Source: Halostagnicola kamekurae
Lineage (GTDB): Archaea > Halobacteriota > Halobacteria > Halobacteriales > Natrialbaceae
Assembly (NCBI RefSeq): GCF_900116205.1
Contig: NZ_FOZS01000003.1
Span: forward strand, 372,001-436,000
Reading direction: 5' to 3'
Length of the DNA: 64,000 bases
The first letter of the stretch is position 1. Every line of letters starts with the position of its first letter. Both the position numbers and the translations under genes were made by a program. Shown piece by piece: positions 39,309-42,005 of this stretch. The notes below the pieces were generated by a model. The model was given only the letters and a program-made list of their open reading frames with translations, was not told the DNA's origin and did no database searches.

Positions 39309-39756
39309 AGACGGTATCAGGTAGTCTCTATTTAAACAGTCGTCCTTCTCGCTCGTATTTGAAGCCGTCTATGACAGCTGTTCGTCCGGAGAAATGGGAG
39401 CTAACTCCCTCAGAACGACTAGATTCGGTCACCTATGTATACCTTGTCGCTGGAAGAGGAAAACGTATTCTCGCAGAAAACGGTTACAATCGCCGAAAGA
39501 CACACCATAGTCACACTCTCTACAGGCGGAGCAGGCCGAGTGCCTCGTGGTCGTACGGAAACCGGAGATTTCCTGATGACGAGAATCTTCGATTCTCGAA
39601 CCACTTGCCCCGAGGCGGTTCACGGATGCCTTCCCTTCGACGAAGATTGGAGACGGCACACTTCAGCAACAGCCCCCGGTGTTCGAGGGGGTTTATGGGA
39701 TGAGCAGGCGCAAAACCTCCCGCCTCAGCGCGGGGAGGATGTCAAGGAAGCAGGAG
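39309..39756. other. intergenic, decayed IS200/IS605 end
   Basis: The part 39500-39740 reads like the degenerate 3' end of an IS1341-type tnpB followed by the right end: CCTCCCGCCTCAGCGCGGGG with a hairpin (39716-39738) and AGGATGTCA. The join to the following orc1/cdc6 text falls at about 39748. No functional gene; the 39309-39400 part contains the promoter of the symporter. Confidence 0.5.
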
Positions 39757-40188
39757 ACGTGGCTGTCGAACAGGACGCTACGCAGGAAACCGTCGGCCAG
39801 GCTCGAGAGTCTCTCAAGCGGAGTCGGATCGTCGACGGCGTTGCTGGGCTTACCCAGCAGGGACATTTCGTGTTGTACGCCCTCCTGATGTTACACGAAG
39901 AAGGTGATACACCGATTCGGGCGCGTGACGTGCAGATCAATACGAAATTATCTGTGGTCGAGCGGCAGTTGACCCGCTCGTTCCGAGACGGATGCGTGAC
40001 CATCTCGGCGAGCTCTCGATGTTGGGGATTGCGAGTCGTACAGAGCGGAACAGAGGTGAATCGGGTGGTCGGTACTACGAGTATCTCTTGACACAAATCC
40101 TGATCTCCTACTCGAAGCTCTCGACGAGACAGTGGACATGGTGGGGGTAACCGACGCCGTTCAGCAGCGTCTCGATCAGGATCTCTGA
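39757..40188 (+). pseudogene. Orc1/Cdc6 initiator, C-terminal winged-helix fragment
   Basis: The text reads ARESLKRSRIVDGVAGLTQQ, GHFVLYALLMLHEEGDTPIR, ARDVQ. It shifts frame near 39950 to DPLVPRRMRDHLGELSMLGI and GESGGRYYEYLL, and shifts again near 40090 to NPDLLLEALDETVDMVG and TDAVQQRLDQDL with the stop at 40186-40188. This is the C-terminal part of an archaeal origin-binding initiator; AAA+ ATPase and N-terminus are lost at the IS junction. Origin-box-like repeats start 8 nt after the stop, as next to functional haloarchaeal orc genes. Confidence 0.7.
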
Positions 40189-40195
40189 CACCCAA

Positions 40196-40373
40196 AGACA
40201 CTGGACAAACTGGGGTGGTCGTCAGTGTACCGAAATGGTCGCGAAGACACTGGACACGGTGGGGTAGCCTGCTACTCTCGAGCTATCTGAGACACTGGAC
40301 ACAGTGGGGTGCAGTTCGGTTCGCAGATTGTGAGAAGACACTGGACACGAGGGGGTATGGACACTGGATTAGG
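40196..40373. repeat. four origin-recognition-box-like repeats plus one half repeat
   Basis: AGACACTGGACAAACTGGGGT (40196), AGACACTGGACACGGTGGGGT (40245), AGACACTGGACACAGTGGGG (40290) and AGACACTGGACACGAGGGGG (40336), followed by GGACACTGGATTAGG (40359). Spacing is 45-49 bp, all in the same orientation. Each has the inverted CACTGGA-type core followed by a G-run, the form of archaeal ORBs. This is probably the fossil or functional remainder of a replication origin. Confidence 0.7.
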
Positions 40374-40455
40374 ACTTGGGACCCAGATAGTCGGTAAGCG
40401 TTACGTTTGGTGCTGGACTCGACCACTATTTTCGTCAACCGTCGTCTCGCTGTGA

Positions 40456-40605
40456 CTGTCCGCAGAGCTGAAAGACCGCTTGGAAACAGGGGAAGACAGC
40501 ACTCTCGAAGATGTCTTCTTGGAGGTGACAACCATGGAAACGAATGGTTCGAACGAATCCCCTCCACAGAAGAGACCGAAATTGCCCTGTACCAAGCGGC
40601 GCTGA
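40456..40605 (+). pseudogene. ABC-2 ATPase C-terminal scrap
   Basis: A frame starting LSAELKDRLETGEDSTLEDV then FLEVTTMETNG ends at 40603-40605. STLEDVFLEVT is the end of ABC-2-type ATPases (compare SLEDMFVAYTG at 29380). No Walker motifs remain. It precedes the DUF7521/regulator genes, which in haloarchaea often accompany such exporters. Confidence 0.5.
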
Positions 40606-40637: not shown

Positions 40638-40982
40638 TCACCGGGATTGTCCTGGGACTACGAGCAGGGAATAGAGGAGAGTGCACAGGCCAACGATTTC
40701 GCTCATTCGACTGAGGAGTGGGAGATAGAACGTATAGATCTGCGACTGGAAGTCGATACTCTGGCCGAGGGAGTGGACCCCAATTGAGAGAGACATCGGG
40801 ACGACAGTGATGAGACAGAGGCCTACTGCGAGGTACAGCATTCGAGCACTGTCGTTCCGGCGGTAGCCCGAGTAGGCGTGAAACACGATGAACAGCGCTA
40901 ATCCCGCCGCGATCAGCGTCGCGGAGAGCAACAGGAGATACTCGGATTGGGACTGTACGCCACCGATCTGAAGTGCCGTCAT
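40638..40982 (-). CDS. DUF7521-like three-span membrane protein
   Basis: 114 residues; hydrophobic spans YLLLLSATLIAAGLALFIVF, MLYLAVGLCLITVVPMSL, and a C-terminal one at LLSRMSEIVGLCTLLYSLLV. Its ATG overlaps the regulator's stop by one base (40982), so they are co-translated. Such pairs of a membrane protein with an ArsR-type regulator (DUF7521 family) are frequent in haloarchaea. Function unknown; possibly membrane-stress sensing. Confidence 0.7.
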   Translation of the reverse strand: MTALQIGGVQSQSEYLLLLSATLIAAGLALFIVFHAYSGYRRNDSARMLYLAVGLCLITVVPMSLSIGVHSLGQSIDFQSQIYTFYLPLLSRMSEIVGLCTLLYSLLVVPGQSR

Positions 40983-41329
40983 CACAGGCCCTCCCACATC
41001 TCGGTGAAGCGGTCGGCGAGGTGTCCGGTTGCTCGCTCGGCGACCGTGATCTCGAACCCGTCGTCGGTGAGCCGAACCGTGAGTTCGTCCAATCGCGCTT
41101 CGTACATGCTGTAGTGGTTCCCGTCGGGTTGCGGTACCCGTCGTTCCGCGAGGAGCCCGCAGTCGACGAGACGATCCGCACGACGATACACCGTTGAGAT
41201 CGAGATGTCACACGCTTCACTGAGTTCCTTTGCAGACATCGCGTCGCCTCGCGTCTGCCGGAGGATCTCTTGGGCGTAGCTGTCGTCAAGGAGGGCGAGG
41301 ATCTCATCGGCATTCTGGTCATCGCCCAT
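40982..41329 (-). CDS. ArsR-type wHTH regulator
   Basis: 115 residues with winged helix (ADEILALLDDSYAQEILRQT, MSAKELSEACDISISTVYRR, VDCGLLAERR). ATG at 41329 gives MGDDQNADE; the longer frame to 41416 lacks homology. Coupled to the membrane protein downstream. Likely controls this pair. Confidence 0.78.
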   Translation of the reverse strand: MGDDQNADEILALLDDSYAQEILRQTRGDAMSAKELSEACDISISTVYRRADRLVDCGLLAERRVPQPDGNHYSMYEARLDELTVRLTDDGFEITVAERATGHLADRFTEMWEGL

Positions 41330-41453
41330 GGGTATCCTCTCCGATTCCCTGAATGACCCCCACCCTCGACAACGAGACACTCCGAAAGAGGTCACGGACA
41401 CGCTCATTTCGGACACTCCATGTACAGATCATTCATTCGTCGCCAGGGTTTGG

Positions 41454-41849
41454 TCACGACGTTTGATAGACGCGCATAAATAGAGCGGCGATGCCATACT
41501 GAACGACGCCGGTTACGAAGTACGCGATGATACCGGCGTATGGACTCTCCACGAAGGACAGGGCGAGCTGGTAGGCGCCAATCAAGACCCCTGACGTGAT
41601 GAGTGCCGCCGAGATCGTCCACACGACGGCAGCACCCCCCGAGTACGAGATCGGCCAGTACTGCTCGTAAGCGTGTGGGATGTTTGCCGCGATCGCGAGT
41701 AAGAGCAGAAAGGATGCTGCAAACGAAACTCCAATCCGGTACAACGGGTAGATGGTGAGTAGCGCCATGAGGACGGCAACCACGCTAACCGTGAAGTCCT
41801 TTGTCAGCTCTGCTTTGAGACGCGTCCCTAGCGACGTGTCGTTTGTCAT
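41454..41849 (-). CDS. four-span membrane protein
   Basis: 131 residues, spans near VSVVAVLMALLTIYPLYRIG, SFAASFLLLLAIAANIPH, AVVWTISAALITSGVLIGAY and AGIIAYFVTGVVQYGIAALF. No family recognised. Same strand as the regulator pair, separated by about 120 nt. Function unknown. Confidence 0.6.
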   Translation of the reverse strand: MTNDTSLGTRLKAELTKDFTVSVVAVLMALLTIYPLYRIGVSFAASFLLLLAIAANIPHAYEQYWPISYSGGAAVVWTISAALITSGVLIGAYQLALSFVESPYAGIIAYFVTGVVQYGIAALFMRVYQTS

Positions 41850-42005
41850 ACGTCGGTCTATGGATCCACGTATGAAGGTACTTATGCGGATTCGCTGGGC
41901 CAGCGAATCTCCGATCGGTCGAGGTTGCAGAGACTATGAGGCCTGTCGAGCGTAATAACCTCAGTCCGTTTCACTGACTCTATCTAGGTGCGACACATCC
42001 GATGG

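Follow-up and report, generated by a model that had tools for sequence, protein, structure and literature searches.

The window is a 64-kb stretch (64,000 nucleotides) of Halostagnicola kamekurae DNA on C3, a 491,679-bp contig of a genome in 16 contigs. At 39746-40188 on the plus strand, it carries the C-terminal third of an Orc1/Cdc6 gene, comprising the end of the lid and the winged helix. Aligned with the intact 405-aa Orc of Natrinema sp. DC36, the relic covers residues 254-405 in three frame segments (39741-39935, 39935-40090, and 40063-40185) with a protein identity of 83-96% per segment, and its TGA stop codon was found at 40186-40188. Comparison with five close intact relatives revealed a 9-bp in-frame deletion near 39792 as well as two -1 frameshifts, each caused by a single-base deletion, located around 39934/39935 and 40084/40085. 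The Pfam domain Cdc6_C was recognized above its cut-off in one frame (E=6e-10, 40.9 bits, positions 36-86 of 96). The AAA+ ATPase domain is missing, as homology to the intact Orc begins at residue 254, past the AAA+ core. With only residues 254-405 present and two frameshifts, the orc gene is not intact; the C-terminal domain with two frameshifts that had been read from the sequence earlier was confirmed by both the alignment and the Pfam match. The stub differs from the consensus of its close relatives at 2.1, 2.7, and 9.0% of codon positions 1, 2, and 3, respectively. This pattern indicates a young pseudogene, in which function would have been lost recently and non-synonymous sites would now be changing.

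Eight nucleotides after the TGA begins a row of four G-run boxes (GACACTGGACAnnnTGGGG), all in the same direction, at 40197-40216 (box 2, GACACTGGACAAACTGGGGT), 40246-40265 (box 3, GACACTGGACACGGTGGGGT), 40291-40310 (box 4, GACACTGGACACAGTGGGGT), and 40337-40356 (box 5, GACACTGGACACGAGGGGGT). Their spacings are 49, 45, and 46 bp, so the row is as the preliminary description gave it, with four same-orientation boxes 45-49 bp apart and the first of them 8 nt past the orc end. The four are real, but they are not all, because a fifth box with one mismatch (box 1, 40128-40147, GACAGTGGACATGGTGGGGG) had been overlooked within the coding 3' end of the orc relic. All five are ORB-like boxes with a terminal G-string, TGGGG or GGGGG, and box 5 is slightly decayed, with T changed to G in its G-run motif. 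A weight matrix built from 40 boxes, all from other genomes, matched exactly these five in the 64 kb (28-37.5 bits), and no match above 15 bits was obtained in 30 Markov-shuffled windows; the five boxes are therefore not due to chance. A loose box pattern (up to three mismatches) is expected about twice per window and is alone weak evidence. All five boxes lie on the plus strand and no minus-strand box was found anywhere in the window, so there is no inverted pair. An AT-rich unwinding element was also not found in the relic, where the AT content is 0.36-0.49 per 80 bp, compared with 0.52-0.59 in the DNA that the box pair of intact loci encloses.

On the left side, orc is cut off at 39693-39746 (+) by a TnpB/IS1341-type element end, which may also be a solo copy. 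The terminal CCTCCCGCC...GCGGGGAGGATGTCAAG of this stretch is typical of the ends of such elements. Positions 39693-39745 are repeated elsewhere in the genome at 87-94%, and the sequence from 39713 onwards also matches directly downstream of a TnpB gene (C2:756177; gene domain C2:755814-755999). Another dispersed repeat, probably a mobile-element remnant, lies left of the relic at 39519-39623; it recurs at C2:135019 (94%) and, less closely, at several other places. On the right side, the remaining downstream flank of the ancestral locus (40357-40467) runs into an HNH endonuclease gene, inside which the relic ends, with homology stopping at 40467. This border is formed by unrelated plasmid DNA, the first part of which (40454-40543, 84% to Halorhabdus tiamatea pHTIA) overlaps the relic by 14 bp; the similarity to pHTIA resumes from 40654 to 42000 at 86%.

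The relic was compared with loci from 125 genomes of Natrialbaceae, to which plasmid counterparts from BLAST were added. Intact plasmid counterparts are present in Natrinema halophilum and Natrinema sp. DC36, homologous over window positions 39746-40467, and in Natronorubrum daqingense, where BLAST homology extends to about 40347. The window aligns to these relatives in their downstream part only (39746-40467, 84-87%). The same boxes flank intact orc genes in 12 genomes, and the plan of the intact loci is conserved, leading from an inverted box pair (the ori core) through orc to a direct box array. The core pair consists of a minus-strand and a plus-strand box directly upstream of orc, whose starts are about 182-188 bp apart (260 in L123). 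Of the 12 loci whose orc is complete, 10 have this pair, and L128, one of the two exceptions, lies near a contig end. Direct boxes follow orc in most intact loci, usually three to six and about 45-50 bp apart, the first of them overlapping the orc end, and an HNH endonuclease gene lies antisense in the downstream flank. A variant origin was observed at L109:5649-5761 (G025), where the usual inverted pair is replaced by four direct boxes with an exact 29-bp spacing upstream of orc. Judged from these alignments, the window array can be assigned to the downstream row of an origin locus and not to its core. Since the window holds only this row and the core lies upstream in the relatives, the preliminary description noted the right objects but took them for the wrong part of the origin.

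In the orc reading frame, box 1 provides the codons for ETVDMVGV. In a set of six diverged intact genes with box 1, the identity of codons for the same residue is 0.84 in the box and 0.48 elsewhere, and 0.84 is reached by only 2 of 400 eight-codon windows, which are box 1 itself and its one-codon neighbour. From this codon pattern, box 1 seems to be constrained as DNA. The box is degraded in three further lineages (L128, L109, and Haladaptatus), and the signal weakens to 0.57 vs. 0.44, so that the box is dispensable and the synonymous sites of the orc-embedded ORB are conserved in most lineages, not in all. An ORB inside the orc 3' end was also observed in L043, L044, L046, L110, L113, L115, L116, L119, L120, L123, L126, and L127.

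Two further wrecks of the same origin type were found in this genome. C8:12804-13461 (L041:7803-8461) holds a second C-terminal relic of the same Orc (residues 290-405) with five same-family boxes, and C7:53397-53897 (L040:10396-10900) holds a complete core pair and direct boxes without orc. The C7 locus first follows the region that precedes orc in intact loci, as far as the plus-strand box; from inside this box onwards, it aligns with the sequence after downstream box 1. Because the alignment switches region within a box, recombination between two direct boxes flanking orc most likely took the gene out, and such an Orc-less origin would probably depend on a cognate Orc supplied in trans. In the window, the first box past the stop pairs with a later, not the first, box of the C7 and DC36 arrays, so box-to-box deletion also cost boxes. 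The genome thus contains three orphan arrays (5 + 5 + 8 boxes), for which no cognate Orc was found. Similar debris occurs in Halostagnicola larsenii and in L118, L121, and L125. The H. larsenii orphan array has no synteny with the window outside the array itself and therefore does not stem from the same event. A single box in G019 (L108) was left aside because its flanks are not homologous. When the window array is set against that of C7, 1 of 68 box sites and 25 of 203 spacer sites differ (p=0.007). We dropped this as a sign of present function, since the codon pattern of the stub puts much of the divergence before the decay; together with the same trend in intact loci, the better conservation of the boxes neither proves nor excludes present use of the array.

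The Orc winged-helix domain has 13 matching places in the genome. No intact Orc of the relic's family was found (completeness 99.94%, 16 contigs), the best candidates being 61% and 52% identical to the DC36 Orc, and only DNA missing from the 16-contig assembly could still hold a cognate Orc. The closest resident Orc, at C3:215425-216651 (P0004), is located 196 kb from the relic; it is 61% identical to the DC36 Orc and 75% identical to Cdc6K of pHH400. Upstream of this gene lie inverted boxes of its own, whose core is ACAGCGGACA, as opposed to ACACTGGACA in the relic, and the boxes of pHH400 are also of the ACAGCGGACA type. The search for a matching Orc, which had been named beforehand as a test, therefore went against the proposal, as the boxes of the nearest live Orc differ from those of the relic by two neighbouring bases of the core (CT against GC). 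Both box types contain ACA..GGACAnnnTGGGG, and the two Orcs share an identical winged-helix stretch, VPRRMRDHL. The C6 Orc (52%) is accompanied by ACAGCGGAAG boxes, and no Orc with the ACACTGGACA box type was found in the genome. As the C3, pHH400, and C6 box types each occur with their own Orc, this Orc family shows, at the sequence level, a graded set of box types that would each be tied to its Orc, which agrees with the published link between Orc and ORB families (PMC3528665). The live Cdc6K-type origin with ACAGCGGACA boxes at C3:215089-215426 (L130:10089-10426) is likely the active origin of C3. The GC-skew maximum is at 223 kb, near the live orc, and no nucleotide-skew extremum was seen at the relic; the curves of this 491-kb replicon are noisy and only weakly favour the live orc near 215-223 kb, so skew was set aside as origin evidence. 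In L106 (5662-7830), a single box of the ACACTGGACA type occurs among the ACAGCGGACA boxes of a Cdc6K-type origin (62% Orc), which is a hint that cross-recognition may be possible.

We consider it highly probable that the locus is the fossil of a downstream control array of a plasmid-type origin, and not a cryptic origin. The ancestral state would have been a plasmid-type haloarchaeal locus with an ori core, orc, and a downstream box array. In such an intact locus, Orc would bind the upstream inverted pair and open the AT-richer DNA between its boxes, and the downstream array would take up spare Orc and thus hold initiation down, as proposed for oriC2D of Haloarcula hispanica. Insertion of the mobile-element end, together with rearrangement, would have removed the inverted pair along with the unwinding region, as well as the AAA+ portion of the initiator; frameshifts would then have arisen in the orc stub, with the downstream array left over. 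The earlier designation as an Orc relic with ORB-like repeats and as a fossil holds in the light of the Orc alignment, the five boxes, and the lost core. In H. hispanica, the oriC2 origin lies upstream of cdc6E and 11 ORBs lie downstream as oriC2D, which alone does not replicate autonomously, acts negatively by lowering origin activity, and is not deletable while oriC2 is present (PMC3936714). Moreover, chromosomal oriC2D reduces the copy number of oriC2 plasmids, from which the authors infer titration of Cdc6E (PMC3936714). The likeness is one of layout, with Orc boxes clustered directly downstream of orc/cdc6 and the core upstream of the gene. This layout holds for the intact relatives, and the window array aligns at the corresponding place. 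On the other hand, oriC2D has 11 boxes against five here, and the locus in the window has lost both its core and a working gene. By analogy, we infer that downstream arrays of the ACACTGGACA family titrated Orc, and that, with no cognate Orc in the cell, the window array no longer has a function.

The preliminary description had suggested that the origin could still fire, which would require a resident Orc, most likely the Cdc6K-type protein at C3:215425-216651, to recognize the boxes in trans. Haloarchaeal Cdc6 proteins are able to act in trans (PMC3936714), and the shared box motif, the identical winged-helix stretch, and the lone relic-type box in L106 make cross-recognition across the two-base change conceivable. 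However, the core would be missing even so, since neither an inverted pair nor an AT-rich stretch accompanies the remaining direct array. Furthermore, each origin of H. hispanica depends on its own Cdc6, and its downstream array is a negative element that does not replicate by itself (PMC3936714). With the CT against GC difference and the noisy skew curves also pointing away from the relic, firing of this array is very improbable, and the relic most likely no longer works as an origin.

By analogy with oriC2D, the three orphan arrays may alternatively serve as decoys that capture Orc from incoming plasmids of the same family and cut their copy number, which would amount to passive incompatibility or immunity. 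The effect of the chromosomal oriC2D copy on a plasmid with the cognate origin (PMC3936714), the presence of 5 + 5 + 8 boxes without an Orc, and the lack of overlap between orphan-array and intact-locus genomes in the surveyed family are in line with this possibility. However, there are only about 12 intact-locus and 7 orphan-array genomes among the 125, a non-overlap equally expected by chance, and mutual exclusion was dropped for such small numbers. The relic is also young, with box 5 already decaying, and plain plasmid debris accounts for everything, so we regard a decoy role as unlikely. If orphan arrays did repress incoming plasmids, haloarchaeal plasmid incompatibility could be inherited as debris. 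Repeats unrelated to replication, such as a CRISPR-like array, a regulatory operator, or chance repeats, would fit the intergenic and repetitive nature of the array, but this explanation is refuted by the conserved association with intact orc in 12 genomes and can practically be dismissed. The spacers, in contrast to those of CRISPR arrays, share homology from one genome to the next. The array is on the downstream side of the minus-strand genes to its right, which is not a promoter position, and the Rfam search gave no match.

As a fossil downstream array, the locus can be placed beside other haloarchaeal systems. The oriP-cdc6K origin of pHH400 from H. hispanica belongs to a sister Orc family (60% to the relic's intact relatives) and has a similar box frame and G-run, but its core is ACAGCGGACA and not ACACTGGACA, its counterpart here lies outside the window at C3:215425, and it is intact and essential, as neither the Cdc6K gene nor the origin is deletable (PMC3936714). 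Haloarchaeal origins disrupted by transposases have already been described, as have Cdc6 winged-helix fragments left behind (PMC4441112). Among these, oriC3-cdc6D, oriC4-cdc6G, oriC5-cdc6H, and the stray Cdc6H_C winged-helix fragment resemble the relic in that transposases or rearrangement broke the origins in variable regions, with C-terminal Orc pieces remaining (PMC4441112); they differ in that the downstream box array survives here beside the C-terminal stub. The relic is thus a further case of known disrupted origins and Orc fragments, and downstream ORB clusters are also known. A limited literature search found no reports of orc loss by box-to-box recombination or of three orphan arrays per genome, and these are the less ordinary parts of the finding. 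An ORB array next to an orc stub is no origin if the array is the downstream one. Origins of this plasmid family would die by the two routes seen here, truncation by a mobile element in the window and recombination between direct-repeat boxes around orc at C7, and the layout of direct boxes flanking orc itself invites recombination.
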